Shown in pieces: positions 2,518 to 48,856 of a stretch of 64,000 bases of DNA; within the stretch, counting starts at the first letter, position 1, and each line of letters starts with the position of its first letter. The DNA lies in contig NZ_JACIDZ010000002.1 of assembly GCF_014196625.1 (NCBI RefSeq), positions 248,001-312,000 on the forward strand, written 5' to 3'. The notes under the pieces were generated by a model. It did no database searches and had not been told where the DNA came from. It worked only from the letters and a program-made list of their open reading frames with translations. A program made the position numbers and the translations under genes. The DNA comes from Martelella radicis (GTDB lineage Bacteria > Pseudomonadota > Alphaproteobacteria > Rhizobiales > Rhizobiaceae).

Positions 2518-2558
2518 GCCAGCGCTTCCCAAGCTCTTTAGAAATTTTACCTTTTGGG

Positions 2559-3749: not shown

Positions 3750-3756
3750 GGGGCTG

Positions 3757-4252: not shown

Positions 4253-4301
4253 AGCATAGAGCCTGGTGATGGTCCGGGCGCAATAACAGGAAAAGACGAC
4301 A

Positions 4302-7790: not shown

Positions 7791-7796
7791 GACGGT

Positions 7797-8336: not shown

Positions 8337-8509
8337 GGCATTCCCTTGAAATTCCGCCCTTTCTCAGGGCTTTGCACGGCCTTGATCGGCCACCCGGACG
8401 GCGGTCTTTGGGCCGCAACGCCGATTTCGGCCCCCTGCCCTCCGCTTCAGGTGGAAAAAAGCCTGCAATATGTGCATTATCGCCGGACATGTTTAATGAG
8501 CTGTAAACG

Positions 8510-9517: not shown

Positions 9518-9528
9518 GGCTCAGATCC

Positions 9529-9813
9529 ATGAAAGGCCTGCACAACCTTCTCCTGTTCGGTGTTTTGGCCTTTGCCGTCACGCCGGTCAGCGTGGCTTCA
9601 AGCACGCCAGTGCCGATGACGCCTGCGGCTCTGCCGACGATCTCCCAGGCGGCCGGATGGACCTGCAGTCAGGCATCAAGCTGCGCCGAGGCTGTCAGGC
9701 AATGGTGCAACGGCTATCGCCGCGCTGACGGCGATAGCGACGTCATTCCGTGTGAGAATGTTTGCCGGTCACTCGCCGAAGTCAGGCGCATCCGCAGCCA
9801 GATCGGCTGCTGA
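9529..9813 (+). CDS. Small secreted Excalibur-like Cys-rich protein
   Basis: A 94-residue protein with a signal peptide (about 1-23) and a mature domain with six Cys (46, 52, 60, 75, 79, 94). The run C-x5-C-AEA, then D67-x-D69-x-D71 and IPCE, matches the Excalibur extracellular calcium-binding domain (paired Cys around a DxDxD loop). A shift from the usual DG to DV is seen at 71-72. Role unknown; cell-envelope calcium binding is inferred. GAGG at 9516-9519 supports the ATG at 9529. It sits directly behind the dehydrogenase gene. Confidence 0.65.
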   Translation: MKGLHNLLLFGVLAFAVTPVSVASSTPVPMTPAALPTISQAAGWTCSQASSCAEAVRQWCNGYRRADGDSDVIPCENVCRSLAEVRRIRSQIGC

Positions 9814-9818
9814 GCGCT

Positions 9819-10649
9819 TCACAACGCCGCAAAAAGCCCGTCGGCATCGTCGGTGGTGATCTGGTCGGCCTTCAGCGCCAGAAGCCGTTCGGCCAGGGCG
9901 AGGCTTTCCGAGTCGCTGCCCGTGATGGTCCAGGCGTCGACCGTCTTTCCGGCCGCATGGAAGGCGGCGATCATGTCGAAACCGGCGTCCGCCGCCGCGA
10001 GAACTAGTTCGTAGTGCAGGTAGAGCATCCGCGCTTCAGGCGCGGTCTGAAGCGCTTCGGCGACGAACTCGGCATAACGCCCGTTTGCCATCACCCGCTC
10101 CATCGCCCCGTCAAGGCAGGGATCATAGCCGGTGGCAAGCCCGGGCACGGCATCGGAAAGGCGCTTCACCGCAGCCGCATCGCCGCCCGACAGGATCATG
10201 TGGCGCGCGACCGGGCGGGCGGTTTCGGCAAAGCGGGCAATGCTGTCCGGTGAAAAGGCGGAAAGACTTTCCTTGAGATCGAGCTGCAGGACCGCCGCCT
10301 CATCCGCCCCGGCCTCGCGCACCAGCCGCGCCAGGTCCTCGAACAGCATCACGCTTTCACCGGTATCGCGCCCGTCCGGGTCAAGAAGGCAGGCGGCGCG
10401 GACCTGATCGGCGGTCGCCCTTGCGACCGGGCCGACCCCGGTCGTCGACTGTTCCAGCAATTCGTCATGCAGAACCGCAAGCGCGCCGTCGGCGGTCAGT
10501 AGCAGGTCGATCTCGCTGCTGGCGCCGGCCTTCAGGCCCTCGGCGATGCGCGCGCGCGAAAATGCGGTGTCCTGAGGAAAGCGCCGGCCGCGATGCCACT
10601 TCAGGGCCGTGCGGTGACCGTTGCGGATGATGGCGACGGGTGCGGTCAT
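9819..10649 (-). CDS. Glycerophosphodiester phosphodiesterase-like protein
   Basis: A 276-residue TIM-barrel protein of the GDPD family. The catalytic set is recognisable: H19-R20-G, then E46-x-D48 and H61-D62, plus QLDLKE further on. The usual PENT motif after the first His is replaced by PQDT. There is no signal peptide, so it probably acts on cytoplasmic glycerophosphodiesters. The ATG at 10649 lies 2 nt from the ispA stop at 10652, implying co-transcription from ispA. Confidence 0.78.
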   Translation of the reverse strand: MTAPVAIIRNGHRTALKWHRGRRFPQDTAFSRARIAEGLKAGASSEIDLLLTADGALAVLHDELLEQSTTGVGPVARATADQVRAACLLDPDGRDTGESVMLFEDLARLVREAGADEAAVLQLDLKESLSAFSPDSIARFAETARPVARHMILSGGDAAAVKRLSDAVPGLATGYDPCLDGAMERVMANGRYAEFVAEALQTAPEARMLYLHYELVLAAADAGFDMIAAFHAAGKTVDAWTITGSDSESLALAERLLALKADQITTDDADGLFAAL

Positions 10650-33078: not shown

Positions 33079-35535
<2,457 letters not shown>

Positions 35536-35586
35536 TGGGGATGGCGCGAAGCGCTTCAATTTGTTGAACACCTATCCCCCTACTCT

Positions 35587-35717
35587 GCGTCATCCTCGGG
35601 CTTGACCCGAGGATCCAGGGGTCTTGTCCGCGCACGTATTGGCACCGGGCGCAAGAATCGCCTGCGCTTCTCGCGACAGCCGGGTTTGGACCCTCGGGTC
35701 AAGCCCGAGGGTGACGC
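35587..35717. repeat. Large inverted repeat after gyrB
   Basis: Two 31-nt arms (35587-35617 and 35687-35717) are near-perfect inverted copies, and each arm is itself palindromic around CTCGGG-CTTGA-CCCGAG. This looks like a dispersed alphaproteobacterial intergenic palindrome; one arm may also act as gyrB terminator. Confidence 0.75.
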
Positions 35718-35754
35718 GTGTGGAGAGTAGGCTCGCAAGTCGAGAGCCCGCGCT

Positions 35755-35905
35755 TGCCGCTATCGCGACAGAGGGGGGTAGCAGACCTCCCTTCTTGCGC
35801 TGTGCTTCGTTGTCGCTGCTTCACCCCCCCCTCTACCCCTGTCGGGGCATCTCCCCCTCAAGGGGGGAGATCGGTTTTCGGCAGAGCCTTCTCACAAGTC
35901 GAGCA
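35755..35905. repeat. G/C-rich palindromic intergenic repeat, copy A
   Basis: Contains a C-run/G-run mosaic with a 31-nt core at 35836-35866 identical to 44378-44408, and a GCGACAGAGGGGG motif also shared with copy B. It resembles the RIME-type rhizobial mosaic elements. It fills most of the 402-bp gyrB-to-hutU-like gap (35536-35937), which holds no gene. Confidence 0.75.
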
Positions 35906-35937
35906 GGGTCTTCTCACACGGCGGAGCGGCGGCGGCG

Positions 35938-37602
35938 TCACCCCTCCAGCGGCAGATAGCCGACACTCCCGCGCTGGGCTGCTTCTTCGGCAATCTCGTA
36001 GCCCGCATCCGCATAGCGGATGATGCCAAGCGACGTATCGTTGGTCAGCGCATGCTCCAGCCGTTCGGCCCCTTCCGGCGTGCCATCAGCGATGATGGTG
36101 ACGCCCGCGCTGGTCATGTAGCCGGCATAGCCGCCGCCACCGGAATGGATGACGACGAGGTCGGCCATCGAGGCGCACATGGTCATCGCATTGATCAGCG
36201 GCCAGTCGGCAATCGCGTCGGACCCGTCCTTCATGTTTTCCGTCATGATGTTCGGATGCGCCATGGCACCGGCATCGAGATGATCGCGCGAGAACGCCAC
36301 CGGTCCCTTCAACTCACCCTTCGCCACCAGATCATTGACCGCGACGGCAAGCCGCGTGCGCTCGCCATGGCCGAGCCAGGCGATGCGGGCGGGAAGGCCC
36401 TCGAAGGGCACGTTTTCGCGCGCCAACCGGATCCAGTTGGTGACGATGAAATTGTCGGGAAACATTTCGAGCACAAGATCATCGATGCGGGCGATATCGC
36501 TCGCCTCGCCCGAAAGCGCCATCCAGCGGAACGGGCCGATGGCTTCGGAGAAGAGCGGCCTGAGATAGGCCTCGGTGAAGATCGGAATGTCGAAGGCGTT
36601 GGCGACACCACCTTCGCGCGCCTGGGTGCGGATCAGATTGCCGTTGTCGAACACCTCCGCGCCATCGCCCTGAAACTTCAGCATGGCGCGAACATGATCG
36701 ACGATCGAGGCGCGGCTTGCCGCCATCAACTGCGCCGGGCCTTCCTCGCGCAGGCGCTTCACTTCGGCCAGGCTCATGCCCTTCGGCACATAGCCATAGA
36801 CGAGATCGTGGGCCGAGGTCTGATCGGTGACGATGTCGGGTGTGATGCCGCGACGCGCGATCTCCGGATAGATATCGGCGGCATTGCCGACGAGGCCGAT
36901 GGATGTCGCCTTTTTTGCCGCCACCGCCTCGTCGATCATCGCCAGCGCGGCATCAAGGTTCGGCGCGATTTCGTCGAGGAAGCCGATTTCGTGGCGCTTT
37001 CGCGCCCGCTCGGCATCGATATCGACCACCAGAATGGCAGCCCCCGCCATGCGCCCCGCCAGCGGCTGAGCCCCGCCCATGCCGCCGAGCCCCGCCGTCA
37101 GGATGAAGCGGCCGGCCAGCGAACCGTCGAACCGCTTTTCGGCGATCCGCATGAAGATTTCGTAGGTGCCCTGAATGACGCCCTGCGAGCCGATATACTG
37201 CCAGGCGCCGGCCGTCAGCCCACCCCAGCAGATCAGGCCCTTGCGCTCAAGCTCGTAGAAAACTTCCGCCTTCGCCCACTGGCCAACGATATTGCAGTTC
37301 GCCATGATGACGAGCGGCGCTTTCGCATGGGTCTTCAGCAGACCGACGGGCTTGCCGGACTGGATGACAAGCGTCTGGTTCTCGTCCATTTCAAGAAGCG
37401 TCTTGACGATACGGGCGTGCGACGGCCAGTTGCGGGCGGCCTTGCCAAGTGCGGCATAGACCACGAGATTGTCCGGGTCCTCGCCGACGGAAAGCACGTT
37501 TTCCATCAACCTGAGCAGCGCTTCCTGTCGCCAGCCTTTTGCACGGACTTCAGGGCCGCCGGGGATCGGGAAATTCGGATGGCGCGGATTGTCTTTCGGC
37601 AT
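35938..37602 (-). CDS. Urocanase-family enzyme, probable (S-methyl)thiourocanate hydratase
   Basis: A 554-residue NAD-dependent urocanate-hydratase-fold protein. NAD/core motifs are kept: QSGKPVGLLKTH, AGAWQYIGSQGVIQGTYE, LTAGLGGMGGAQPLAGRMAG, FRWMALSG. However, the catalytic Cys of urocanase, in the family's RPLFC segment, is Ser (S352, RPLFSEAIGPFRW). MYGQMTAGS is replaced by CWGGLTAGA, and the C-terminal NTASGATWV-HHGGG region by MCASMADLV-HSGGGG. It is therefore a paralogue, not HutU. With its operon partners it most likely hydrates thiourocanate or S-methyl-thiourocanate. Last gene of the operon, 12 nt after the DUF917 gene. Confidence 0.85.
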   Translation of the reverse strand: MPKDNPRHPNFPIPGGPEVRAKGWRQEALLRLMENVLSVGEDPDNLVVYAALGKAARNWPSHARIVKTLLEMDENQTLVIQSGKPVGLLKTHAKAPLVIMANCNIVGQWAKAEVFYELERKGLICWGGLTAGAWQYIGSQGVIQGTYEIFMRIAEKRFDGSLAGRFILTAGLGGMGGAQPLAGRMAGAAILVVDIDAERARKRHEIGFLDEIAPNLDAALAMIDEAVAAKKATSIGLVGNAADIYPEIARRGITPDIVTDQTSAHDLVYGYVPKGMSLAEVKRLREEGPAQLMAASRASIVDHVRAMLKFQGDGAEVFDNGNLIRTQAREGGVANAFDIPIFTEAYLRPLFSEAIGPFRWMALSGEASDIARIDDLVLEMFPDNFIVTNWIRLARENVPFEGLPARIAWLGHGERTRLAVAVNDLVAKGELKGPVAFSRDHLDAGAMAHPNIMTENMKDGSDAIADWPLINAMTMCASMADLVVIHSGGGGYAGYMTSAGVTIIADGTPEGAERLEHALTNDTSLGIIRYADAGYEIAEEAAQRGSVGYLPLEG

Positions 37603-37614
37603 TGTCCTGTCTCC

Positions 37615-38703
37615 TCAGGCGAGCGCGTAATCGGCGATCGAGATGCCGAGCGCCTTTTCCACCACCGGATAAACGGCCGGATCCTTGACGCTGGAAGACA
37701 GCGGAATGACCGACTTCGGCACGTGCAACACGAAGATCGTCATGCCCTCTTCGAGCTGGCCGACGCTCAAGGGTTCGCCGTCGGGGGACAACGTGGTGAT
37801 GACATCGGGGAAGGTCGCGATCCGGTTTCCGCCGGCATCCTCGACCGCCATGTATTCGTTCATCACATGCAAAACCGTGGCCTTGTCGCCAGACCCCACC
37901 GTGACCGTACCGACATCGAAAGCCTCGTTGGTGTAGACGACGGCCTTCTTCGTTACCTTGCCCTCGGTCAGGATCGCGCCGTTGGTTGTCTTCACGATGG
38001 CGTCGATGATGGCAGAACCGCCCTTGCCTTCCGCCGCGATGATCGCTTCGCCAAGCGTCAGCGCCATCGAGATACCGCCAAGTGCAGCATGGGTCTTCAC
38101 ATAGGACGCCCTGAGCGGATTGCGGCAGGAGGCGATGAAGCCGCCGGACTGGTCGGCGGCTGTTCTGAGTACCGGCGAGATCTTCGCCGTCGCGCCCTTC
38201 ACCACCAGTTCGATATAGCGGTTTTCGGCGCGGTTGCCGCCAACGGCCGTCTGGATCATCTGTTCGGGCGAACTCGCCATGCCGATCGCGCCCATGTCGC
38301 CGGTCGGATGCGCACGGATATCGCCGACGGCATCGACCACCTTGGTGCCGAGCACGGCCGATGGCAGCCAGCCGTTCAGCGTCGAGGATTTTCCGTTCTG
38401 GCCGACGATCAGACCGGCGAGTTTCTCACCGAGCGCGTCCTGCAGCAGCTGCGCCGCCTTGATATAGTCGATGCCCTGCATCTCCCACGGCGTGGTCGAG
38501 GCTGGCGCGCCGATCGCGGCAGCCGTTGCCACCCAATCATCATCGGAAAGCTCTTCCACCGAGACCAGCTCCGGCTTGCCGACATTGACGGCGGCATAGC
38601 CGAGCATGCGGCCGTGATCGGCCCAGCCGCCGCCGCCGGCGGCATAAACCGAGCCGCCCTTGACGGCGGGTTCCACATCTTTGGTCGTCAGGATACGGCC
38701 CAT
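37615..38703 (-). CDS. DUF917 (S-methyl-thiohydantoin desulfurase family) protein
   Basis: A 362-residue protein of the DUF917 family, which to my recollection was renamed S-Me-THD after characterisation of S-methyl-thiohydantoin desulfurase and of the desulfhydrase of the ergothioneine route. N-terminal GGSVYAAGGGGWADHGRMLGYAAV and VSVEELSDDDWVATAAAIGAPASTT are family signatures, with GAIGMASSPEQMIQTAVGGNR in the middle. Predicted reaction: thiohydantoin-5-propionate (or its S-methyl form) to hydantoin-5-propionate with loss of sulfide or methanethiol. It lies 1 nt from the M20 hydrolase gene. Confidence 0.85.
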   Translation of the reverse strand: MGRILTTKDVEPAVKGGSVYAAGGGGWADHGRMLGYAAVNVGKPELVSVEELSDDDWVATAAAIGAPASTTPWEMQGIDYIKAAQLLQDALGEKLAGLIVGQNGKSSTLNGWLPSAVLGTKVVDAVGDIRAHPTGDMGAIGMASSPEQMIQTAVGGNRAENRYIELVVKGATAKISPVLRTAADQSGGFIASCRNPLRASYVKTHAALGGISMALTLGEAIIAAEGKGGSAIIDAIVKTTNGAILTEGKVTKKAVVYTNEAFDVGTVTVGSGDKATVLHVMNEYMAVEDAGGNRIATFPDVITTLSPDGEPLSVGQLEEGMTIFVLHVPKSVIPLSSSVKDPAVYPVVEKALGISIADYALA

Positions 38704-38704
38704 C

Positions 38705-39958
38705 TCATTGCTCCATCAGTTGTTTGTCGAGCCGCTTCACCGCTTCGAGCAGCACTTCCGCTCCGAGCGCGATATCGGCGTTTTCCGCCCATTCCTCGGG
38801 CGCGTGACTGCGACCGGAAAGGCAGGGAATGAAAACCATGCCGGCCTTGGCGATGCGCGCCATGAAGGCGGCATCGTGGCCGGCGCCAGAGGCCATGCGA
38901 CGATGCGCGGCATCTGTCGCCGCGCAGGCGTCGTCGAGCGCATCCATCACCAGCGGGTCCATCGGCATGGCGGGATTGTCGGAAACGAGCCGCGGCGGGG
39001 CGATGGTGACGCCGTTGTCGCCGGCAATGCCTTCGAGGCAGGATTCCAGATTGGTCAGGAACTGGCCAAGGTCGTCGCGCTTTTCCGAGCGGATATCGAG
39101 CAGCATCCGCACCTTCGAGGGCACGACATTGGCGGCGTTCGGCCACATCTCGAATTCGCCGGTGGTCGCGGCAAAATGGCCGGGCGTCGCGGCAAGCTCG
39201 CCGGCAAGCGTCTCGACAGCGAGCACCACATGGGCGGCCGCGCCAAGCGCATCGGCCCGGCGGTCCATCGGCGTGGTGCCGGCATGGTCGGCCCGGCCCT
39301 CGACGATGATCTCGATGCGGGTGATACCGGCTATGGCGGTGACGACGCCGATGTCCAGCTTCTCGCCCTCCAGCACCGGCCCCTGCTCGATGTGCAGTTC
39401 GAGAAAGGCACGAATATCATCGCGGGCTTTCTGTTCGGCGCCGGGATTGCCGCCGACCTTCTCGATACCCTCGGCCAACGTCATGCCATTCGCTTCCCGC
39501 CCCAGCCATTCGGCCGGGCGAACGCCCGCCATGCCGCGCGAGCCGATGCAGGAAACGCCGAAGATCGAGACTTCCTCGGCGAGAAAGTCGGTGACCTCCA
39601 GATCATGGTCGAGTTCGATGCCGGCCTCGGCCAGCGCCCGGGCAACCTCCAGCGCCACGACGACGCCGGCAATGCCGTCAAAGCGGCCGCCATCGGGCAC
39701 CGTATCGGAGTGCGAACCGAGCATGATCGTGCCGGCGCCGGGCTTCTTGCCCTTGCGTCCGCCGATCAGATTGCCCGCCGCGTCAATGCGGGTTTCCAGC
39801 CCTGCGGTGCGAAAAGCGTTTTCGAGATAGGCGCGACCTTCGAGAAAGAGCGGCGAGAAGGCGCGCCGCGTCCACGGCCGGTCCGGATCGGTGATCACGG
39901 CAAGCGCATCGATATCGGCGGCAATCCGTTCCGCGCTGACTGTGAGGTTGCGGCTCAT
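38705..39958 (-). CDS. M20-family N-carbamoyl-L-amino-acid hydrolase
   Basis: A 417-residue dinuclear-metal amidohydrolase of the M20/allantoate amidohydrolase group. Metal and catalytic motifs: GSHSDTVPDGGRFDGIAG, AEEVSIFG, LELHIEQGPVLE, DHAGTTPMDRRADAL and SGAGHDAAFMA. In this operon the best substrate is N-carbamoyl-L-glutamate, giving glutamate, CO2 and ammonia. Related enzymes act on allantoate or ureidopropionate. It overlaps the hydantoinase-like gene by 4 nt. Confidence 0.88.
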   Translation of the reverse strand: MSRNLTVSAERIAADIDALAVITDPDRPWTRRAFSPLFLEGRAYLENAFRTAGLETRIDAAGNLIGGRKGKKPGAGTIMLGSHSDTVPDGGRFDGIAGVVVALEVARALAEAGIELDHDLEVTDFLAEEVSIFGVSCIGSRGMAGVRPAEWLGREANGMTLAEGIEKVGGNPGAEQKARDDIRAFLELHIEQGPVLEGEKLDIGVVTAIAGITRIEIIVEGRADHAGTTPMDRRADALGAAAHVVLAVETLAGELAATPGHFAATTGEFEMWPNAANVVPSKVRMLLDIRSEKRDDLGQFLTNLESCLEGIAGDNGVTIAPPRLVSDNPAMPMDPLVMDALDDACAATDAAHRRMASGAGHDAAFMARIAKAGMVFIPCLSGRSHAPEEWAENADIALGAEVLLEAVKRLDKQLMEQ

Positions 39959-41334
39959 CGGATCATCTCCCGAAGCGGCAGGCTTGCCTCGGGACGGACG
40001 AAGGCGCCGGTGCCGGGTTCGGCGACGGACTTGCCATCAAAGACCTGTTTTCCACGCAGGAAGGTCGCCGCCACCCTGTAGGGCAGGCGTATGCCATTAT
40101 AGGGCGACCAGCCAACGACATTGTTGCCGCTTTCCGCCGCGTCATAGACGAAGTCACCCGGTTCCAGCACCGCGATATCGGCGTGCTTGCCGATTTCGAG
40201 CGCGCCTTTTACGTGGTCGATACGAAAATGCCTGGCCGGGTTTGCCGCCATCAGCCTTGCCGCCCAGAAAAGCGGCACGCCATGCTCGGTCGCGCCCTTG
40301 ATGAAGAGCGGCATCATCACCTCGAGCCCCGGCACGCCCGACGCATTCGCCAGCATGTCGGGATTGGTCTTGCGGTCTTCCGACCAGCTCACGTGATCGG
40401 TGGAAACCAGCGTGACATTGCCGCAAGCCACATGCCGCCAGAGTTTTTCAACCTCGGCGCGCGGGCGCACCGGCGGGTTGATCTTGGCCTTGCCGCCGAG
40501 GCGTTTCACATCGTTTTCCTCGTCGAGGATCAGATAGTGGATGCAGCATTCGACCGTGGCGTTGAAACCCTGAGCCCGATAGCCGGCAGCGATCTCGTAG
40601 CCGCGGCCGAGCGAGCAGTGCACCACATGGGCCGGGCAGCCAGTTTGCGCGCCCGTCTCGTAGATCTGGTGCATGGCGAGCAGTTCGGTCAGCGGCGGGC
40701 GCGACAGGCCATGGGCGCGGTAATCGGTGATGCCCGAGGCCTTCACCTTCGCAATTGCCGCATTGACGAACTCGTCATCCTCGTTGTGAACGCCGGCGGC
40801 AAGGCCGGTCGGCGCGATCGCGGCAAAGCACTCTTCCAGAAGAGCGGCGGGGATACGGGGGAAGCGGGTCGGATGCGTGCCAAACGTGGAGAACTTGAAG
40901 GCCGCGACGCCCGCTTCCACCTGCTCGGCGATGCGTGCTGCCCCTTCCGTCGGGTCGACCGTGCCGTAAAGCGCGAAATCGACGCGAGCCTGAGGCGATG
41001 CGTGGGCGATTTTCCTGCGGACGGCTTCGGCCGAATTGACCACATTGCCTTCGTCATAGGGCATGTCGACAATCGTGGTGACGCCGCCGGCAGCGGCAGA
41101 GCGCGTCGACCAGATGAAATCCTCCTGGTCCTTCTGGCTCAAGGAATGAACCTGGGCATCAATCGCTCCCGGCAGGATCAGGGCCTTGCCCAGGTCGTGG
41201 CGCTCGCGTGCCTCGGGCATCGCGCCCTGGCCGATGGCTGCGATCAGCCCGTCGCGGACCGCCACATGGCCGCGCTTGACCACCCGATCGGAAAGCACCA
41301 GCGTGCCCTTCAGAACGAGATCGAAATCCGACAT
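39955..41334 (-). CDS. Hydantoinase/allantoinase-like cyclic amidohydrolase
   Basis: A 459-residue TIM-barrel amidohydrolase. D59-A-Q-V-H63 stands where most hydantoinases have DxHxH, so the first metal His is Gln, as in some dihydroorotase/allantoinase subgroups. Other candidate metal ligands are K147 (AAFKFST, the carbamylated Lys), H183, H239 and D313 (STDH). Expected reaction: opening of the hydantoin ring of hydantoin-5-propionate to N-carbamoylglutamate. It starts 10 nt after the permease gene and overlaps the M20 hydrolase gene by 4 nt. Confidence 0.85.
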   Translation of the reverse strand: MSDFDLVLKGTLVLSDRVVKRGHVAVRDGLIAAIGQGAMPEARERHDLGKALILPGAIDAQVHSLSQKDQEDFIWSTRSAAAGGVTTIVDMPYDEGNVVNSAEAVRRKIAHASPQARVDFALYGTVDPTEGAARIAEQVEAGVAAFKFSTFGTHPTRFPRIPAALLEECFAAIAPTGLAAGVHNEDDEFVNAAIAKVKASGITDYRAHGLSRPPLTELLAMHQIYETGAQTGCPAHVVHCSLGRGYEIAAGYRAQGFNATVECCIHYLILDEENDVKRLGGKAKINPPVRPRAEVEKLWRHVACGNVTLVSTDHVSWSEDRKTNPDMLANASGVPGLEVMMPLFIKGATEHGVPLFWAARLMAANPARHFRIDHVKGALEIGKHADIAVLEPGDFVYDAAESGNNVVGWSPYNGIRLPYRVAATFLRGKQVFDGKSVAEPGTGAFVRPEASLPLREMIR

Positions 41335-41344
41335 TTGATGTCTC

Positions 41345-42085
41345 CTAGTAGAAGCGGCCCGTGCGCCGCGCAGTTGCCCGCTCGAACATCACGAAGGCAT
41401 CGTGAATGAGAAGCGCCAGAACGCCGACCACGAGGCCGCCTTGCAGAACGAAAGCGGTATTGTTCGACAACAGCCCGGCGATGATCACCTCGCCAAGCGT
41501 CTTGGCGGCGACCGTCGAGCCGATCGTTGCCGTTGCCAGCGAGATGACCACCGAAAGCCGGATACCGGCAAGAATGACGGGAAAGGCCAGCGGAAACTCG
41601 ACCTGCATCAGGCGTTGCGTGCCGGTCATGCCGACGCCGCGCGCGGCCTCCGAGACATTGCCCGGCAAATTGGTCAGCCCAGTCAGCGCGTTCTCGAAGA
41701 TCGGCAGAAGGCCGTAGAGAAACAGCGCAATCAGCGTCGGGATCGGGCCGAAGCCGAACATCGGCACGGCAAGCGCCAGCACCGCGACCGGCGGAAAGGT
41801 CTGGCCGATATTGGCGATCGAGCGCGACAACGGCAGGAATTCAACGCCGAAGGGACGGGTGACGATGATGGCAAGGCCGACAGAGAAGAGGGTCGCCGCA
41901 ACTGTCGCCACGCCGACAATGGCGAGGTGGCTCAGCGTCAGCGACAGCAGGCTGGTCTGGGTGTAGATCGCCGGCGCGCCGTTCTGGGTGAACGGACGGA
42001 ACACCGGCGCGAAGGCTTCCGGAAAGCTGATGAAGGCGATCAGCAGGACGAGAAGCGCCAGACGGATGAGGACCGACGCTCTCAT
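41345..42085 (-). CDS. ABC transporter permease (OpuC/EgtU-like)
   Basis: A 246-residue permease with about six membrane segments and the EAA-loop ENALTGL-EAARGVGMTGTQRLMQVEFPLAFPVILAGIR typical of osmoprotectant/betaine (ProW/OpuCB) permeases. GVATVAATLFSVGLAIIVTRP is likewise characteristic. It overlaps the ATPase gene by 4 nt. Since ergothioneine is a betaine and known bacterial uptake (EgtUV) uses this family, ergothioneine or S-methyl-ergothioneine is the probable cargo. Confidence 0.88.
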   Translation of the reverse strand: MRASVLIRLALLVLLIAFISFPEAFAPVFRPFTQNGAPAIYTQTSLLSLTLSHLAIVGVATVAATLFSVGLAIIVTRPFGVEFLPLSRSIANIGQTFPPVAVLALAVPMFGFGPIPTLIALFLYGLLPIFENALTGLTNLPGNVSEAARGVGMTGTQRLMQVEFPLAFPVILAGIRLSVVISLATATIGSTVAAKTLGEVIIAGLLSNNTAFVLQGGLVVGVLALLIHDAFVMFERATARRTGRFY

Positions 42086-43020
42086 GATGACGGCCCCGCG
42101 GCGCGGCGGATCAGGGCATCGCGGGTAACCCGGCCGATGACCTTGTCGTCCCGCTCGACCGGCAGCGCATCGCGACCCGACCAGAGTGCTGCGGCGAGCG
42201 CATCCTTGAGGCTTGCCGAAGCCGGGATCGCCTCGCCTTCTGCCGGGCCCTGCTCGACCAGGTTTTCGCAGGCCTCGAGCGAGAGCATGCGGAAGGCCTT
42301 GTCGCCGGTGCCGAGCAGTTCGTTGACGAAGGCGCTTGCCGGATCGGCGATGATTTCTGCGGCCGGCGCATATTGTTCAAGCCGTCCCTCATGCATGACC
42401 GCGATCTTGTGACCGAGGAGGATTGCCTCGTCCATGTCATGGGTGACGAGCACGACCGTGGTTGAGAATTTGCGCTGGATATCGATCAGGTCTTCCTGCG
42501 CCTTGGCGCGGATGATCGGGTCGAGCGCGCCGAAGGGCTCGTCCATCAACAGCAATGCGGGTTCGGCGGCAAGCGCGCGGGCCACGCCGATGCGCTGCTG
42601 CTGGCCGCCGGAAAGTTCGTGCGGCATGCGGTCGCGAAAGGCTTCGGGCTCCAGGTGGAACAGTTCCAGCAGTTCATCGACGCGGGCATCGCGCCGCTTC
42701 CTGTCCCAGCCGAGCAGTTTCGGCACCGTGGCGATGTTTTCCGCCACCGAGCGATGGGGAAACAGGCCGTGGCCCTGAATGGCATAGCCGATGCCGCGGC
42801 GCAGCTCATAGTCCGGCAGCTCGCGGTTGTCGCGTCCGTCGATGCGGATTACGCCGGAGGTCGGCTCCACCAGGCGGTTGATCATCCGCATCAGCGTGGT
42901 CTTGCCGGAACCGGACGTGCCGACAATCGCCGCCAACTCTCCGCGCTCGACCGTGAGCGAGACATTGTCGACGGCATTATAGTCGCCATAGACCTTGGTA
43001 ATTCCCTCAATCTCGATCAT
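42082..43020 (-). CDS. Betaine-type ABC transporter ATPase (ProV/OpuCA family)
   Basis: A 312-residue ATP-binding subunit. Walker A GTSGSGKTT near 34-42, Q-loop AIQGHGLFPH, signature LSGGQQQR, Walker B LLLMDEPFGALD and H-loop VTHD are intact. The C-terminal 80 residues are a shortened CBS-like region, as in osmoprotectant importers. It overlaps both flanking permease genes by 4 nt. Confidence 0.92.
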   Translation of the reverse strand: MIEIEGITKVYGDYNAVDNVSLTVERGELAAIVGTSGSGKTTLMRMINRLVEPTSGVIRIDGRDNRELPDYELRRGIGYAIQGHGLFPHRSVAENIATVPKLLGWDRKRRDARVDELLELFHLEPEAFRDRMPHELSGGQQQRIGVARALAAEPALLLMDEPFGALDPIIRAKAQEDLIDIQRKFSTTVVLVTHDMDEAILLGHKIAVMHEGRLEQYAPAAEIIADPASAFVNELLGTGDKAFRMLSLEACENLVEQGPAEGEAIPASASLKDALAAALWSGRDALPVERDDKVIGRVTRDALIRRAAGPSS

Positions 43021-44219
43021 GCCCGGCTCCCCTTTTTGGCCCTGGTCTGGCTGATTTCAACAAGCGCATCGAGAATGATGGCTGCGGCAAAGGCCATGCC
43101 GACGACCGGCAGCGCGCCGAGCAGCACGAGGTCGGTGGCCGTCTGGGCGATGCCCTGGAAAACGAATGTGCCGTATCCGCCGCCGCCGATCAGGCCGGCG
43201 ATCACGGCAAGTCCGATATTCTGCACCAGTACGATGCGGATGCCGGTTAGGATGACGGGAAAGGCAAGCGGCAGCTCCACCTGGAAAAGCCGCTGCCGGC
43301 CGGTCATGCCCATGCCGCGGGCGGCTTCGCGCGCATCGCGCGGCACGCTGTCGAGGCCGGCGACCGTGTTGGAGACGACCGGCAGAAGCGAATAGGCAAA
43401 CAGCGCGACGATGGCCGGGGCAAAGCCGATGCCGGCGATGCCGAGTTCGGCAGCGCCCGGCACATTGCGGCCGACCCAGGCAAGCGGCGCGATCAGCAGA
43501 CCGAAGAGCGCGATCGACGGAATGGTCTGCAACACATTGAGGCTGTTCAGGATGGTGGCGCGCACCTTCGGCACGCGAAAGCAGAGAATGCCGATCGGAA
43601 TGCCGGCAAGACATGCGGCCGCCAGCGAACCGAAGGCGAGTTCCACATGGGTGCGGCCCTCGCGCCAGAAGGCGTCGGCGCGGTTGTTGTATTCCTTCAG
43701 GATCGACAGGTCGTTCCACGCGCCCGACCAAAGCAGAAGCCCGATCGCCAAGGCCGCGACGATCAGGAACGCGATCCGCATCATCGGCGGCAGCGCCTTG
43801 CGCACAATGGCATCGGCCATGGCGATGGAAAAGGCGAACAGCAGGATCCAGAAGCTCGCGCCGGGCGAAACGCGAGCGTAGGGGTTGTCGTCCGGCATCA
43901 GGTAATAGCCGGCGCGGCCCACCATCAGCGCCAGAACGGCAATGGCGGCGATCGAAACAGTGAGCCTCAGGTTCACCGGCGTCCTGAACAGGATGACGGC
44001 GATGGCGGCGAGCATGACGACGACAAGGGCAATGGCCTGCCACAGCGGCATGGCCGACCAGACCATGACATTGTCGGCCGCGACGATGCGGTTCGCGCGG
44101 AAAAGCGCGAAGGGCTGGAGGAAGAGCGCGAAGAGCGCAATCGCCGCGACGATGACGCCGAGCTTGTCGAGCCTTGCGGCGGCCCGGCCTTCCTTTCGGT
44201 ATTCGCTGATGGCTGACAT
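43017..44219 (-). CDS. ABC transporter permease (long form, YehW/OpuC-like)
   Basis: A 400-residue permease. The N-terminal half has four extra hydrophobic segments before the BPD_transp_1 core (about 190-390), which includes NVLQTIPSIALFGLL, EAARGMGMTGRQRLFQVELPLAFPVILTGIR and GGGGYGTFVFQGIAQ. This long type pairs with a short permease in YehWXYZ/OsmU-like systems. First permease gene after the binding-protein gene, separated from it by repeat copy B. Confidence 0.88.
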   Translation of the reverse strand: MSAISEYRKEGRAAARLDKLGVIVAAIALFALFLQPFALFRANRIVAADNVMVWSAMPLWQAIALVVVMLAAIAVILFRTPVNLRLTVSIAAIAVLALMVGRAGYYLMPDDNPYARVSPGASFWILLFAFSIAMADAIVRKALPPMMRIAFLIVAALAIGLLLWSGAWNDLSILKEYNNRADAFWREGRTHVELAFGSLAAACLAGIPIGILCFRVPKVRATILNSLNVLQTIPSIALFGLLIAPLAWVGRNVPGAAELGIAGIGFAPAIVALFAYSLLPVVSNTVAGLDSVPRDAREAARGMGMTGRQRLFQVELPLAFPVILTGIRIVLVQNIGLAVIAGLIGGGGYGTFVFQGIAQTATDLVLLGALPVVGMAFAAAIILDALVEISQTRAKKGSRA

Positions 44220-44277
44220 GGCATGCCCTTCGGCTTGTCGGTCGGTTATCCCGCTTGCGGCGGGGGTGCGCGCCTTC

Positions 44278-44411
44278 GATCTCCCCCCTTGAGGGGGAGA
44301 TTTCGCGAAAGCGACAGAGGGGGTATGGGCAAGAGCCGCATACGCCGCGCTCTTTGGTGAGGATTCACCCCTCTTAGCCCCTGTCGGGGCATCTCCCCCT
44401 CAAGGGGGAAG
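44278..44411. repeat. G/C-rich palindromic intergenic repeat, copy B
   Basis: It lies between the binding-protein and permease genes. A hairpin ATCTCCCCC/GGGGGAGAT (44279-44302) is near one end, and the 31-nt core 44378-44408 shared with copy A is at the other. Its position inside an operon suggests it may lower expression of the downstream permease genes relative to the binding protein. Confidence 0.75.
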
Positions 44412-44444
44412 ATTGTTTTTGCTGCATTGCCGCCGATTTCGGCC

Positions 44445-45362
44445 TTACTTCACGAACCCGTTCTTCGTCAGATAGTCCTTGGCAACGGCATCGGCCGGTT
44501 CACCGCCGACCTGGACGCGGCCGTTGAGGTCCTGCAGGGTTTCAAGCGTCAGACCCTCGAAGATCGGCTTCAGGATATCGGCAATCTGCGGGTATTCCTC
44601 GAGGCGGACCTCGCGGATGATCGGGGTCGGCAGGTAGACCGGCTGGACGCCCTTGTCGTCCGTCATCACCTTCAGGCCGGACGGCGCGATGCCGCCGTCG
44701 GTACCGTAGACCATGGCGGCATTGGCGCCCGAGGTCTGTTTGGCCGCAGCCGCGATCGTTGCCGCCGTGTCGCCGCCGGAAAGCTGGATCAGCTGGCCGG
44801 AGGTGAGATCGAAGCCATAGGCCTTTTCGAAGGCCGGAAGCGCTGCCGGCGAGGTGACGAATTCGGAGGATGCCGCAAGCTTCACCGTGCCGCCATCGGC
44901 GACGAAGGCGCCGAACTCGCTCATGGTCGAGAGATTGTTCGGGTCGGCAACATCCATGCGCAGGGCGATTGCCCAGGTGTTGTTGGCGTCCGCCGGCGTC
45001 AGCCATACGATCTTGTTGGCGTCGTAATCGAGCTTCTTGGCCTCTTCATAGCCGGCCTCCGGCTTGTTCCAGACCGGCAGGTCGGTCTTGTTGAAGAAGA
45101 AGGCGGCATTGCCGGTATATTCCGGGTAGATGTCGATCTGGCCTTGCGTGATCGCCTGACGGACAATCGGTGTGCCGCCGAGCTGGATCTTGTTTTCCGT
45201 CGGAATGTCATTGGCCTGCAGCGCCTGAATGATGATATTGCCGAGCACGCCGCCTTCCGTGTCGATCTTGGAGGAGACGACGACCGGATCGGCCGAAGCG
45301 GTTCCTGCGAAGGCGAAGGCCGAGATGGCAAGCGCGCCTGTCAAAGTCAAAAGTCGTTTCAT
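44445..45362 (-). CDS. Periplasmic betaine-type substrate-binding protein (OpuC/EgtU-like)
   Basis: A 305-residue solute-binding protein. Signal peptide about 1-24 (TASA before DPVVVSSK). Core motifs: DTEGGVLGNIIIQALQA, IVRQAITQGQIDIYPEYTGNAAFFF and AMVYGTDGGIAPSGL, typical of the OsmX/YehZ/OpuCC family that binds quaternary amines. Ergothioneine, a trimethylammonium betaine, fits this fold and the operon. GAGGGAC supports the ATG at 45362, which lies 67 nt past the ergothionase-like gene. Confidence 0.9.
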   Translation of the reverse strand: MKRLLTLTGALAISAFAFAGTASADPVVVSSKIDTEGGVLGNIIIQALQANDIPTENKIQLGGTPIVRQAITQGQIDIYPEYTGNAAFFFNKTDLPVWNKPEAGYEEAKKLDYDANKIVWLTPADANNTWAIALRMDVADPNNLSTMSEFGAFVADGGTVKLAASSEFVTSPAALPAFEKAYGFDLTSGQLIQLSGGDTAATIAAAAKQTSGANAAMVYGTDGGIAPSGLKVMTDDKGVQPVYLPTPIIREVRLEEYPQIADILKPIFEGLTLETLQDLNGRVQVGGEPADAVAKDYLTKNGFVK

Positions 45363-45429
45363 GATCTGTCCCTCTCTTGGTCGGTCCCTTGGTCTGTCCC
45401 TGGGGAACCGTGCTTGATCGCCTGCGGCC

Positions 45430-46980
45430 TCAGGCCGTCTCAGGCGGTGCGAGTGCGAAAAAGTCATCGAGCAGGGCCAGCGGCGCCTGGTCGATCAGTC
45501 GGGTCATTGTCGCGTCCGAGCCGAGCTCCTCTTCAATCTGCTCGACCTCGCTCGAAAGCGGCCTGTCTTTCAGATAGAGCGCGGAATGCGATCTGACGAT
45601 AGCATAGACCAGATTTGCGACGCCGCATGGCTCATCGCCGGAAATATCCATGGCCTGCGCCGCCAGAAGCGCCTCGAGGCCTGCCATGCGCCTCAGCGCC
45701 CGAACTTGTCGCTCGAAGCGTTCAACCACGAGCGGCAGGAAGGCGGCCTCGTCCTCGATCCCGCCGGCGACCACCAGCGACTGGGCCGAAATCGGCGCGG
45801 ACAGCGACTGGGTGCGGATGAAGAGATCGCCCGCGAGCTTCAGGATCGGCCCGAAACCGGTGGCCACGGTACCGTGCGGCACGAGGTTGACCGGCAGGCC
45901 GCGCCGTCCCCCGTTTGCAAGGATGACGCAGCGGTTGAAGATGTTGCGCGCCACATGGGCCATGGCGATCTGGGCGGCCTGCATGTAGATCGTCACATCG
46001 AGCGGTAGCGAGCCGCCGGAGGTCAGCACTTCATTGCCGATGACCACCGGATTGTCGTCGGTACGTCCGGTCGCTGCCAATATGGTGTTGCCGGCAATCG
46101 TCAGGCTCTCGATCGTGGTACCGAAGACCTGCGGCATCATGCGGATCGACAATGGATCCTGGACATGGCTGGCGGACGTCCAGCACCAGTCATCAAAGGC
46201 GCGGCAAAGCCAGGTGCCGATATCGGCATGCGCATGGGTGCCGACCTCGACCACCGAACGCCAGGGCGCGATCGCGGCCCCCATAGCGCCGGCCGTCGCA
46301 AGCCCCGTTGCCAGAAGCACGCGCACGGCAAGGGCGGCCTTGTGCAGGGCGGATGCGGCGGAGGCATAGCCGATGGCATTGAGCGAGAAGGAAGCGAGCG
46401 CATCGCGCGGCTCCATCCGCAAGGGCTGAAGACCGGCAGCCGAAAAGGCCTCGGTCACCGGCATGCGGCGGCCCTGATAGACGGCATCGCCAACGCCGGT
46501 GAGCGCTGCCGAGACCTGACCCATCAGGCCGATATCGGCGCAACCGATCGAACCGGTACGGCGCACGACCGGGATGACATCCTGTTCGAGAAGCGCCTGA
46601 AACGCCTCCACCAGCGCCATGGAGCAGCCGACCCGGCCGGTCAGCGCGGTATTGATGCGGATCGCGATCGCGTTGCGGACGATCTCGACCGGAAAAGGCT
46701 CGCCGGTTCCGAAATGATGGGCGCGCACGAGGCCGAGGTTGAAATCTTCCAGCGCCTCGGCGGTCCACTCGGTGTCCTTCATCGCGCCGACGCCGGTATT
46801 GGCGCCGTAGATCGAGAGCCCGTCGGCAAGCCGATCCTTCACCACCTGATGCGCGCGCTCGACACGCTCGACCCCGGCCTGCGTGACGGCGGGAAGCGCG
46901 AGGCCGGCGCCGATCCGCGACAGGATGTCGAAATCCAGCGGCTGTCCTGAAAACATGATGTTCTTGTTCTTCGGGCTCAT
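45430..46980 (-). CDS. Aromatic-ammonia-lyase-fold enzyme without MIO triad, probable ergothionase
   Basis: A 516-residue protein of the HAL/PAL superfamily. It keeps the loop tyrosine motif Y58-GANTGVG, but the MIO-forming Ala-Ser-Gly (normally GSVGASGDL) reads GSIG-C147-A148-D149-IGLM, so the prosthetic group cannot form. Ergothionase, which eliminates trimethylamine from ergothioneine, is known to work with acid-base catalysis in this fold. That and the downstream thiohydantoin genes support the call. GGGGA favours the ATG at 46980 over one at 46992. It is the first gene of the operon, divergent from the LysR gene. Confidence 0.82.
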   Translation of the reverse strand: MSPKNKNIMFSGQPLDFDILSRIGAGLALPAVTQAGVERVERAHQVVKDRLADGLSIYGANTGVGAMKDTEWTAEALEDFNLGLVRAHHFGTGEPFPVEIVRNAIAIRINTALTGRVGCSMALVEAFQALLEQDVIPVVRRTGSIGCADIGLMGQVSAALTGVGDAVYQGRRMPVTEAFSAAGLQPLRMEPRDALASFSLNAIGYASAASALHKAALAVRVLLATGLATAGAMGAAIAPWRSVVEVGTHAHADIGTWLCRAFDDWCWTSASHVQDPLSIRMMPQVFGTTIESLTIAGNTILAATGRTDDNPVVIGNEVLTSGGSLPLDVTIYMQAAQIAMAHVARNIFNRCVILANGGRRGLPVNLVPHGTVATGFGPILKLAGDLFIRTQSLSAPISAQSLVVAGGIEDEAAFLPLVVERFERQVRALRRMAGLEALLAAQAMDISGDEPCGVANLVYAIVRSHSALYLKDRPLSSEVEQIEEELGSDATMTRLIDQAPLALLDDFFALAPPETA

Positions 46981-47029
46981 CGCGTTCCCCATTGATTGAG
47001 GGCAAGCCTATTGGATTATCGCGAAAGGC

Positions 47030-47090
47030 GGGATATCCCATATGATGAACGGGAGATGCTCCCGATTTATGCAATCTTTCTTTTGCATAA
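47030..47090. promoter_or_regulatory. Divergent operator region with three inverted repeats
   Basis: Between the ergothionase-like and LysR genes: GGGATATCCC (47030-47039), CGGGAG-ATG-CTCCCG (47050-47064) and TTATGCAA-N8-TTGCATAA (47067-47090). The last is a perfect 8-bp repeat about two helical turns across, well suited to a LysR-type dimer. Confidence 0.6.
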
Positions 47091-47115
47091 AATATAAGCA
47101 CCACAGAATGGGGCG

Positions 47116-48297
47116 ATGTCCGTGGATACGCTGACGATCACAAGCGTGCATGAGGTGCTGAAATGCGGCGGCCTGCGCCCCGCAGCGCGCGCATTGCATC
47201 GTCCGCCGGCCAGCATGGCAGCCGCCGTCGGTCGGATGGAGGACGAACTCGCCACGCCGCTGGTGCAGAAGGCCGGATCGCGCCTGTCGCTGACGCTTGA
47301 GGGACGGCGGCTGATGCCGGATATCGCGCTTGCGGCAGGCACGGCCCGTGCCCTTGGGGAGCTTGCGGCTGTCGACGCCGCGCGAAGGGCGAAGCTGTCG
47401 GTGAGCTTCCTCACGCTCTCCCGCTTCTCGCAGGTGGCGCGCTCGGGCAGCATCCGACGCGCCGCGCGCGAGATCGGCATCGGCCAGCCGCAGCTTTCCC
47501 GCCAGATTTCCGCCTTCGAGACGGACATGAACCGGACGCTCTTTGCCCGAAGCGCCGAGGGCATTGACCTGACGCCCGCCGGCCAGCAGGTGCTCGCGCT
47601 TGCCGAGACGCTCGAGGAAGTGTGGAAACGCCTGACCAAGAGCGCGGCCCGCCAATTCCGGCGCACGGTCTCCACCTGCCACCTGGGCTCGGTGATCCCG
47701 CTCGGCTACGAGAGCAACACGGCGCGCTCCCTCGCCCGGCTTTCCGCCCGCTGGCTCGAGCAGCGGCCCGGCGCGCCGCTGTTCATCTCGTCCACCACGG
47801 CGGATGAACTGATGCGCGGCCTGCAGGGCGGCACCTATGACGTGGCGCTGCTGGACACCGAGGCGATCCCGGACAATTTCGAGCGCCGAGCGATCTCGCG
47901 CTCGCGCCTTACCATCGTCGGCCCGCGCCGGCTGATCGAAACTAGCGGCGGGGACGTCGCCAATCTGGTTCTGACCCGCCCGGTCGCGGTGCCGAGCCTC
48001 AAGAGCGGGCTCAGGCAAAAGGCCGACGCGCTTTTCGCCGAGAAGCTGAGCGAGGCCGAACGAGCAGCCATGCGCATCGTTGAGGTCGATTCCCTGCCGA
48101 TCATCGTCAACCTCGTCATCGAGCACGACTTTGTCGCCGTGCTGCCGGAGGCCGCCTTTCTTTCCATGGCCGCCCCGATCGGCAGCATTCCGCTTGCGGA
48201 TCGTTTCAGCCTCACCCTCTCCCTGGTCTGGCCGCCGACAACGGCCGCCGCCCGCCAGGCAAGCCGCATCCTGGAGGTTTTGCCGGCGATCGACTGA
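47116..48297 (+). CDS. LysR-type regulator with two tandem HTH domains
   Basis: A 393-residue transcription factor, about 90 residues longer than normal LysR proteins. Two winged-HTH LysR domains stand in tandem: residues 8-67 (RPAARALHRPPASMAAAVGRME) and 98-160 (GSIRRAAREIGIGQPQLSRQISAFE, with the more canonical spelling). A periplasmic-binding-like effector domain at about 185-385 follows. It is divergent from, and probably controls, the ergothioneine operon, responding to the substrate or thiourocanate (inference). Confidence 0.88.
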   Translation: MSVDTLTITSVHEVLKCGGLRPAARALHRPPASMAAAVGRMEDELATPLVQKAGSRLSLTLEGRRLMPDIALAAGTARALGELAAVDAARRAKLSVSFLTLSRFSQVARSGSIRRAAREIGIGQPQLSRQISAFETDMNRTLFARSAEGIDLTPAGQQVLALAETLEEVWKRLTKSAARQFRRTVSTCHLGSVIPLGYESNTARSLARLSARWLEQRPGAPLFISSTTADELMRGLQGGTYDVALLDTEAIPDNFERRAISRSRLTIVGPRRLIETSGGDVANLVLTRPVAVPSLKSGLRQKADALFAEKLSEAERAAMRIVEVDSLPIIVNLVIEHDFVAVLPEAAFLSMAAPIGSIPLADRFSLTLSLVWPPTTAAARQASRILEVLPAID

Positions 48298-48397
48298 CGG
48301 GGGCGCGGCTTCGGATACCTTTTTGAGGAACATCAGGCCTGCCCGGAGGGTTTCTGCTTAAGGCAAATCTTCCCCGTCAACCAAGAGGAGGTCCATG

Positions 48398-48856
48398 ATG
48401 AGCCTGTTCAAAGTTCCCCACAAATCCTGGGTCGTCGTCTGCGACGGTTCGCGGGCGCTGTTTCTGGAAAATGGCGGCAATGCCGAGATCCTGAATCTCA
48501 GGGTGGAAGAGCGCTTCGCCCACGACGACGCGCCCTCGCGCGATATAGGCACCGACAAGCCCGGCCGCTCCCATTCCTCGGTCGGCAGCGGTCGCAGCGC
48601 CATGGAGGAAACCGACTGGCATGAACAGGCGGAGCAGGAATTTGTCAAACGGGTGGCCGAGCGCCTCAACGCCCTCGTCTATGACAAGACGATCGAGGAC
48701 TACGTCCTGATCGCCCCGCCGGCGGCAATCGGTGCAATCCGCCCCCATCTCAAGTCCGAGACAAGCGGGGCAATGCGCGAAGAAATCCAGAAGGAACTCG
48801 CCAACCAGTCGGTCGCCGATATCGAGAAGCACCTGACCAAATTGCGGGCCGCCTGA
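48398..48856 (+). CDS. Host-attachment family protein
   Basis: A 152-residue protein of the family annotated as required for attachment to host cells (Pfam Host_attach, related to archaeal release-factor-1-like RNase folds). KSWVVVCDGSRALFLENGG at the start and LIAPPAAIGAIRPHL in the second half are family motifs. AGGAGG six nt upstream favours the second of two ATGs (48398). It is monocistronic; function not established. Confidence 0.85.
   Translation: MSLFKVPHKSWVVVCDGSRALFLENGGNAEILNLRVEERFAHDDAPSRDIGTDKPGRSHSSVGSGRSAMEETDWHEQAEQEFVKRVAERLNALVYDKTIEDYVLIAPPAAIGAIRPHLKSETSGAMREEIQKELANQSVADIEKHLTKLRAA

Follow-up and report, generated by a model that had tools for sequence, protein, structure and literature searches.

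Does Martelella radicis possess a complete operon for the utilization of ergothioneine, with an importer and a regulator of its own? This question is raised by a gene cluster in a stretch of 64,000 nucleotides (positions 248001–312000 of contig C2; genome of 4.99 Mb in 41 contigs), which is called the window here. Nine adjoining minus-strand open reading frames (ORFs) span 35938–46992 of the window, and a gene for a LysR-type protein with two helix-turn-helix (HTH) stretches lies divergent to them. We regard the cluster as a complete ergothioneine utilization operon with an OsmF-type importer and LysR control via a DNA box, at a probability of about 0.85; it very probably imports ergothioneine, an antioxidant of mushrooms, and degrades it to glutamate. 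The enzymatic pathway is already known, and the importer type and the regulator are apparently new components.

Catabolic genes of the cluster

The gene families were checked against Pfam and NCBIfam with curated cut-offs. Pfam matches across the operon comprised urocanase, S-Me-THD, M20 peptidase, amidohydrolase, two binding-protein-dependent permeases, an ATP-binding cassette (ABC) ATPase, an OpuAC substrate-binding protein (SBP), and an aromatic lyase. The initial annotation had described nine adjacent minus-strand genes with 4-nt overlaps, and this description was borne out by the presence of all the ORFs, by overlaps of 4 nt at exactly three junctions (43017–43020, 42082–42085, and 39955–39958), and by the Pfam and NCBIfam matches. 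The remaining intergenic gaps are 67, 225, 10, 1, and 12 nt. The span of 35938–46980 given at that time held at the 35938 end and had to be corrected at the other, since the lyase gene begins at 46992.

Four of the enzymes exceeded the cut-offs of NCBIfam equivalog models: thiourocanate hydratase (NF058530; 1027.9 bits, cut-off 930), thiohydantoin desulfurase (NF058529; 607.6 bits, cut-off 440), ErtD (NF058538; 787.7 bits, cut-off 600), and ErtE (NF058540; 607.6 bits, cut-off 520). By curated family membership they are assigned to the ergothioneine route and, together with a lyase that lacks the 4-methylideneimidazole-5-one (MIO) site, they sustain the ergothioneine reading first proposed. The ErtE protein scored higher with NF009531, a model named only Zn-dependent hydrolase (671.1 bits, cut-off 486). 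The best Protein Data Bank (PDB) match of the hydratase was 7ned, which we take to be the Paenibacillus thiourocanate hydratase (801.8 bits; runner-up, 625.3 bits). Contig C9 carries a stronger hutU (977.8 bits) adjoining a hutH-type lyase that keeps Ala-Ser-Gly and shows 53.5% identity to the histidine ammonia-lyase (HAL) of P. putida. Because the stronger hutU sits beside hutH there, histidine utilization is probably served by this pair. A placement of the window hydratase with true HutU, the outcome that the initial annotation had set against its own reading, was not found, given the thiourocanate equivalog and the stronger hutU elsewhere, though the broader hutU model was also passed (687.9 bits, cut-off 375).

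The DUF917 and urocanase families also have curated S-methyl models, and both window proteins match them, as would be expected if the operon served S-methyl-ergothioneine instead of ergothioneine. However, the scores fell under the cut-offs of these models (NF058531/NF058532; hydratase, 748.7 against 880; desulfurase, 288.7 against 450) and above the thio cut-offs. The relation is reversed in an S-methyl-like pair of locus L093, in which the hydratase scored 890.8 with the S-methyl model (cut-off 880) and 695.9 with the thio model, and the desulfurase 409.4 (under the cut-off of 450) and 261.6. The S-methyl alternative left open by the initial annotation is therefore hardly credible, and ergothioneine is retained as the predicted substrate.

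The order of the reactions is taken from the known pathway. Ergothioneine would be taken up by the OsmF/YehZYXW-type ABC importer and cleaved by the MIO-less lyase to thiourocanate and trimethylamine, and the hydratase would convert thiourocanate to thiohydantoin-5-propionate. The DUF917 desulfurase would then yield hydantoin-5-propionate with release of sulfur, ErtD would open the ring to give N-carbamoyl-glutamate, and ErtE would produce glutamate. The expected releases are trimethylamine, sulfide, and ammonia plus CO2 from the carbamoyl group. A five-step bacterial ergothioneine catabolism was reportedly described by Beliaeva, Leisinger, and Seebeck in 2021. The window enzymes would carry out the same kinds of five steps, and four of them bear its NCBIfam names. 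On the other hand, the MIO-less subgroup of the window lyase is separate from the Treponema enzyme, and the operon incorporates an importer of the OsmF type and a LysR with two HTH stretches.

The best PDB sequence match of the lyase was the Treponema ergothionase 6s7j (178.8 bits, versus 133 for HAL). At the MIO site, GSVGASGD of HAL corresponds to GSIGCA-D in the window lyase and SSIGEG-D in ergothionase. The Ala-Ser-Gly of Hut HAL is absent from the window lyase (GSIGCA-DIG), ASG being replaced by CA with a one-residue deletion that the Treponema enzyme shares. In an alignment of 80 lyase rows, which includes some genes twice, 74 rows carry GS(I/M)GCA-, one SSIGEG-, one MSVGAS-, and four GSVGASG. 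A tree of 19 rows rooted on two HALs placed the 16 MIO-less rows in one group (100/98), with the Treponema ergothionase inside and the MIO-type lyases outside, and the ert lyases (11 rows) formed a separate clade (100/100). The deletion at the triad and this grouping support the MIO-less character claimed at first, and a firm position of the lyase with MIO-type HAL was not found in the 19-row tree. The window lyase lies outside the branch of the Treponema ergothionase, which groups with the Sinorhizobium L186 and Paraburkholderia L188 lyases (83/87); the Treponema ergothionase, L184, and L187 were flagged as long branches. An AlphaFold2 model of the lyase was obtained from 10 rows (mean predicted local distance difference test score, 78; predicted template-modelling score, 0.84), with the MIO-position stretch and several loops below 50 in the former score. 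In a fold search with this model, 6s7j ranked first (template-modelling score, 0.85–0.86) and HAL was nearly equal (0.83–0.85). The window lyase thus has the fold and the one-residue loss in common with the Treponema denticola ergothionase (6s7j and 6s7q), but differs from it in branch. The ergothionase label rests on MIO loss and context rather than on close similarity, and ergothioneine is the predicted substrate, with release of trimethylamine. In PMC13405746, ergothionase appears rare by BLAST search and divergent homologues are warned of; the lyase subgroup described here would account for the few BLAST matches to the known ergothionase.

Several MIO-less lyase groups have other neighbours (L186, L187, L188, and L184), and the window lyase might accordingly act on another histidine betaine, such as hercynine or ergothioneine sulfonate, to give urocanate-like products. 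Against this, the models matched by the downstream enzymes indicate specificity for thio compounds; hercynine would need only hutU, and the sulfonate route would need no desulfurase. We consider such a substrate very improbable and keep to ergothioneine.

To follow the gene set in other genomes, a five-row desulfurase alignment was run against 84,980 species genomes, and the best 80 of 400 relatives, nearly all Rhizobiaceae, were kept. Judged by the desulfurase, Martelella lutilitoris was the closest named relative among these 80 (97%). An enzyme was counted as present in a locus when a tblastn match covered more than half of the query. Since all five enzyme genes were found in 64 of the 80 related loci, the gene set is not a chance neighbourhood. 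The idea that loci without the lyase belong to thiourocanate scavengers was rejected, because a full-length lyase (>760 bits) lies elsewhere in the genome for 12 of 13. The absence in L087 is a contig break only; the best lyase match in the genome of L059, a metagenome-assembled genome whose locus ends near a contig end, had 162.4 bits, and genome G554 has no full-length lyase (best match, 160.5 bits). Some lyase matches carry one stop, namely L127 (G571), L223, and L234–L236.

Table 1. Features of the ergothioneine locus and their positions in the window
Feature	Position	Strand	Evidence
Third copy of palindromic element, just beyond the operon 3' end	35826..35878	.	Direct repeat
Thiourocanate hydratase	35938..37602	-	NF058530
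Thiohydantoin desulfurase, DUF917, S-Me-THD fold	37615..38703	-	NF058529
N-carbamoyl-L-glutamate amidohydrolase ErtE	38705..39958	-	NF058540
Hydantoin-5-propionate amidohydrolase ErtD	39955..41334	-	NF058538
Second ABC permease of importer	41345..42085	-	PF00528
ABC ATPase, betaine/proline/choline kind	42082..43020	-	PF00005; TIGR01186 proV 280.6 bits, under cut-off 326.6
ABC permease of importer	43017..44219	-	PF00528
Two facing copies of palindromic element, SBP/permease gap	44277..44420	.	Inverted repeat
Periplasmic binding protein of the OsmF/YehZ type, predicted to bind ergothioneine (start taken at MKRLLTL; longest mechanical ORF begins at 45467)	44445..45362	-	NF049931; PF04069
MIO-less aromatic-amino-acid-lyase homologue, predicted ergothionase	45430..46992	-	PF00221 272 bits; 6s7j best PDB match
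Predicted box for LysR, GTTCATCATATGGGATATCCC, in the lyase/LysR gap	47030..47050	-	Promoter comparison, genome counts, matrix scan
Double-HTH LysR, predicted regulator of the regulon, divergent	47116..48297	+	Two PF00126 and PF03466; co-occurrence with desulfurase

An OsmF-type importer within the operon

The SBP exceeded the cut-off of the OsmF equivalog NF049931 (494.2 bits, cut-off 400). The OsmF-like structures 4wep and 5teu matched it with 354 and 432 bits, and the EgtUC entries of the PDB with 80–87 bits. OsmF is presumably YehZ, and OsmF/YehZYXW likewise comprises an SBP, two permeases, and an ATPase in one operon; the window version differs in being embedded in an ergothioneine catabolic operon and in its predicted substrate. 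EgtU of Firmicutes is also an ABC importer with an OpuAC-type SBP, but it joins SBP and permease in one protein, whereas these are separate genes in the window. When the contact residues given in PMC9732360 were compared, K242, T275, N339, E375, Y419, and Y443 of EgtU were retained in the SBP, with I at 243. Differences were found at G244 (D), T274 (G), F293 (Y), T296 (N), Y337 (A), Y341 (W), R379 (S), and D381 (A), and the aromatic pentagon of EgtU was not found in the SBP, where G244 and F293 are replaced by D and Y, and Y341 by W. Because several of the EgtU contact residues differ, the window SBP is, judged by its sequence, not an EgtU. According to PMC9732360, EgtU is confined almost entirely to Firmicutes, and Helicobacter pylori has a relative of lower affinity. 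The gene context argues for ergothioneine as the ligand of the SBP.

Three of the 80 loci (L009, L010, and L011; two named Martelella and one titled Marinicella sp. W31) contain the OsmF importer inside the locus; L010 gave no hydratase match, and L011 no hydantoinase and carbamoylase matches. G040 and G262, which represent two further families within the class, share the full ten-gene order, importer included: LysR / lyase / SBP / permease / ATPase / permease / hydantoinase / carbamoylase / desulfurase / hydratase. Identity to the window genes was 70–72% for the SBP and 45–47% for the lyase in G040, and 60% and 35%, respectively, in G262. The arrangement is therefore not unique to the window genome. 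On a plasmid of Ochrobactrum quorumnocens, the importer and the five enzymes form adjoining modules with LysR between them; LysR shares its strand with the importer, and the enzymes are encoded on the opposite strand. The neighbourhood ORFs came from a codon-usage scorer, which missed genes such as the lyase of G262 and the LysR of the Ochrobactrum plasmid; these two were recovered only by tblastn.

The importer and the pathway also co-occur in wider samples. The desulfurase exceeded its cut-off in 5 of 289 genomes of the class and 6 of 398 of the phylum, and OsmF (E<=1e-60) was present in 10 and 39 of them, respectively. In the class sample, OsmF occurred in 4 of the 5 desulfurase genomes and 6 of the 284 others (Fisher 3.6e-6, uncorrected for kinship), and it adjoins the pathway in three of the four genomes having both, lying approximately 200 kb off in G015. 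The corresponding numbers in the phylum sample, where three of the matches come from one genus, were 4 of 6 and 35 of 392 (Fisher 0.001, likewise uncorrected).

It might be argued that the catabolic genes serve ergothioneine and that the importer is an ordinary glycine betaine/choline osmolyte transporter merely located in the operon. NCBIfam names the SBP a glycine betaine protein, and the OsmF operons examined in pathway-less genomes stand apart from ert genes. In addition, the pocket residues are alike in pathway-linked and stand-alone OsmF (16 rows aligned): 15 other rows are identical to the window at K242, I243, D244, T275, Y293, N296, A337, N339, W341, E375, Y419, and Y443, and R379 is present in two rows of one other family (L144 and L147). 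The glycine-betaine protein AfProX likewise retains K242, T275, E375, Y419, and Y443, so that the pocket does not tell which ligand is bound. On the other hand, the position of the importer between lyase and hydantoinase is kept in three families, the LysR gene and the box adjoin a separate importer in Rhizobium, and OsmF co-occurs with the desulfurase as given above. The title of Lang 2015 (cited in PMC6207618) describes the E. coli YehZYXW as a low-affinity, non-osmoregulatory system. An osmolyte transporter is thus unlikely, and an importer dedicated to ergothioneine is predicted, now with comparative evidence. In an SBP tree, the pathway-linked SBPs fell in more than one clade, with 4 changes by the labels used, under which duplicates of the window SBP, the Rhizobium SBPs, and the Ochrobactrum SBP counted as 'other'. 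The Rhizobium LysR-linked SBPs grouped with the pathway-linked G262 SBP (Shimodaira–Hasegawa-like approximate likelihood ratio test, 99).

The double-HTH LysR and a candidate box

The divergent gene encodes a LysR-type protein with two HTH_1 stretches (PF00126) and a LysR_substrate domain (PF03466, 53.7 bits). Counting full-length matches at E<=1e-22, this double-HTH LysR was found, in one copy each, in 9 of 10 desulfurase genomes and in 1 of 65 genomes without the desulfurase (Fisher 7.9e-10, uncorrected for kinship). The 65 genomes consist of 5 (0 with LysR) and 60 (1 with LysR); they are not a random set, being enriched for kin and for OsmF carriers, and one of them, G606, has a sub-cut-off desulfurase-like match. 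For many genomes in this count, only 31 first-look candidates were scored. The long matches (152–773 bits) were well apart from ordinary LysR proteins (at most 66.6 bits). G086 has a desulfurase over the cut-off but no double-HTH LysR. In three genomes of one genus, Rhizobium G322, G380, and G519, the sole such LysR gene lies divergent to the OsmF operon, and the enzymes are encoded on a different contig. A LysR tree left the positions of G262 and the Rhizobium rows open and carried a long-branch warning.

G593 is the sole one of the 65 genomes with this LysR; the desulfurase was absent from its whole genome at E<=1e-60. Its LysR gene stands with a hydantoinase (79%) and a carbamoylase (66%) at 6793–13696 of L184, together with a decarboxylase of the UbiD type and a MIO-less lyase of another kind (SVGAS-D); L184 is perhaps a sister pathway.

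A sequence, GTTC-N9-GATATCCC, was recognized by eye in a promoter comparison. The window copy lies in the 123-bp gap between lyase and LysR, its middle being 48 bp from the lyase and 76 bp from LysR. Of 75 loci, 56 have an exact box no further than 300 bp upstream of the lyase, and the box of the other 19 has 1–5 mismatches. Exact boxes were counted in 42 whole genomes. The Rhizobium genomes G322, G380, and G519 have exactly two each, at the lyase and in the LysR-OsmF gap; the window genome has two, one of which is that in Table 1, and G015 three, one at its lyase. None was found in the whole genomes of G086 and G593. In 31 genomes without desulfurase or LysR there were 19 exact sites, none fitting GTTCRNNAWNNRRGATATCCC (by eye, the wider pattern being post hoc). 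A reversed control pattern gave 0 sites in the 42 genomes.

A matrix trained only on 12 distinct lyase-upstream sites was used to scan both strands of 126 loci, with 5.16 million positions; in some cases, a given gene is covered by more than one locus. At 13.7 bits, a threshold set afterwards to the weakest Rhizobium LysR-OsmF site, 116 matches were obtained, compared with 7 in a Markov background. They were located upstream of the lyase (78, largely by construction), LysR (23), and the OsmF SBP (3), in other intergenic positions (7), and within genes (5). Sites outside the training set included those of the Rhizobium LysR-OsmF gaps (14.4, 13.7, and 17.6 bits) and one of 22.4 bits at the Ochrobactrum SBP, 76 or 154 bp upstream depending on the start chosen. 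Of 11 lyase genes separated from the other enzyme genes, 7 likewise have a site outside the training set, and these seven are on other contigs; two of the remaining four are on the same contig as the enzymes. One of the seven other intergenic matches is the G262 lyase/LysR gap, two have no importer or racemase neighbour, and four, in L040, L041, and L117, stand before an importer of the amino-acid type or, in the case of L041, before a racemase.

In L040 (2840–5797) and L041 (2812–5733), an amino-acid-type ABC importer with a family-3 SBP lies near LysR and the enzymes, as does an Asp/Glu/hydantoin racemase in L041 (1405–2055). Strong boxes stand before each of the two importers (25.1 bits) and before the L041 racemase (24.6 bits), which suggests that this importer is a second importer type in the regulon.

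The box could instead have nothing to do with LysR and be a repeat or the target of a different regulator: it was first spotted by eye as a candidate site, it was not above the threshold upstream of four of the 11 separate lyases, and its exact form is missing in three genomes named below. However, 104 of the 116 matrix matches lie upstream of the lyase, the double-HTH LysR, or the OsmF SBP, against 7 in all in the Markov background, and in all three Rhizobium genomes the exact boxes stand at the lyase and the LysR/OsmF gap and nowhere else. An unrelated site is thus rather improbable. We infer that the divergent LysR binds the box in the lyase/LysR gap and would control the operon. Where importer and enzyme genes are separate, as in some relatives, they would be tied together by this box and a regulator of this family.

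Several observations weigh against the reading of the locus as a dedicated ergothioneine operon. The identity of the window lyase is 26.9% to the Treponema ergothionase and 26.1% to HAL, with a long stem of its own, and its NCBIfam matches are to ammonia-lyase/mutase models only, every one under the cut-off. No OsmF SBP was found in the stretch covered (up to 10 kb on each side, some shorter) of 77 of the 80 loci, and many OsmF genomes are without the pathway (the 6 of 284 and 35 of 392 above). The EgtU-specific G244 and F293 are not in the SBP, and Ser replaces R379. The exact box is absent from the whole genomes of G040, G262, and G571, which have degenerate sites instead, and neither of two exact boxes in G554 is at its ert locus. 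In Rhizobium, the box is 55–89 bp from LysR and 366–369 bp from the SBP, and could serve LysR alone.

Related loci and the possible regulon

Outside the operon, gyrB (33097–35535; DNA_gyraseB domains) converges toward its 3' end. An inverted repeat (44279–44323 / 44369–44413, 78%) lies in the SBP/permease gap, and 35826–35878 is an 87% direct repeat of 44368–44420. The palindromic core ATCTCCCCCTCAAGGGGG occurs three times in the window (35849–35866, 44284–44301, and 44391–44408; shuffle mean 0.00), and the facing copies perhaps form an mRNA hairpin. An Rfam search of 35500–48600 gave no match. A promoter scan gave 1 match (2.0 expected), and a terminator scan 16 (9.4 expected), which are in part the palindromic repeats.

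Other combinations of these enzyme families were seen in related genomes. In L180 of G086 (1090–5606), a MIO-keeping lyase (GSVGASGD) directly precedes a desulfurase (599 bits, cut-off 440) and a thiourocanate hydratase (963 bits, cut-off 930), and it may be an ammonia-lyase for 2-thiohistidine. In L093, also of G086, the hydratase/desulfurase pair nearer the S-methyl models (7678–10554) is followed by five genes of approximately 490 aa in a row. The other MIO-less lyases of L187 (2986–5494) and L188 (4803–9521) are found on Rhizobium and Paraburkholderia plasmids, one adjoining an OpuAC SBP and one a hutU-type hydratase (966.7 bits); they are likely to belong to other histidine-betaine routes.

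In the open-access literature, searched by title and abstract start, no description of the arrangement with importer and LysR was found, nor anything on LysR regulation in connection with ergothioneine; the key enzyme papers are outside that literature. Among the matches listed for YehZYXW, no title links it to ergothioneine, and no ergothioneine importer of Alpha- to Gammaproteobacteria was found in the open-access literature searched. YehZ/OsmF is unmentioned in the main text of PMC9732360, and no word starting with Yeh occurs in that of PMC12689799 or PMC10971958, as far as these texts were available.

LysR together with the box offers a marker for ergothioneine-using genomes. A broader reading, to which as a whole we give somewhat less than even odds, has two parts. 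The first is a previously undescribed ergothioneine regulon in which the one-copy double-HTH LysR, acting on the box, links the enzymes and the OsmF-type importer even across contigs. Secondly, because 16 aligned OsmF rows share the ligand-cage residues, stand-alone OsmF/YehZYXW systems may also be importers of ergothioneine or other histidine betaines. If this is true, a transporter family of E. coli and rhizobia would gain a substrate.

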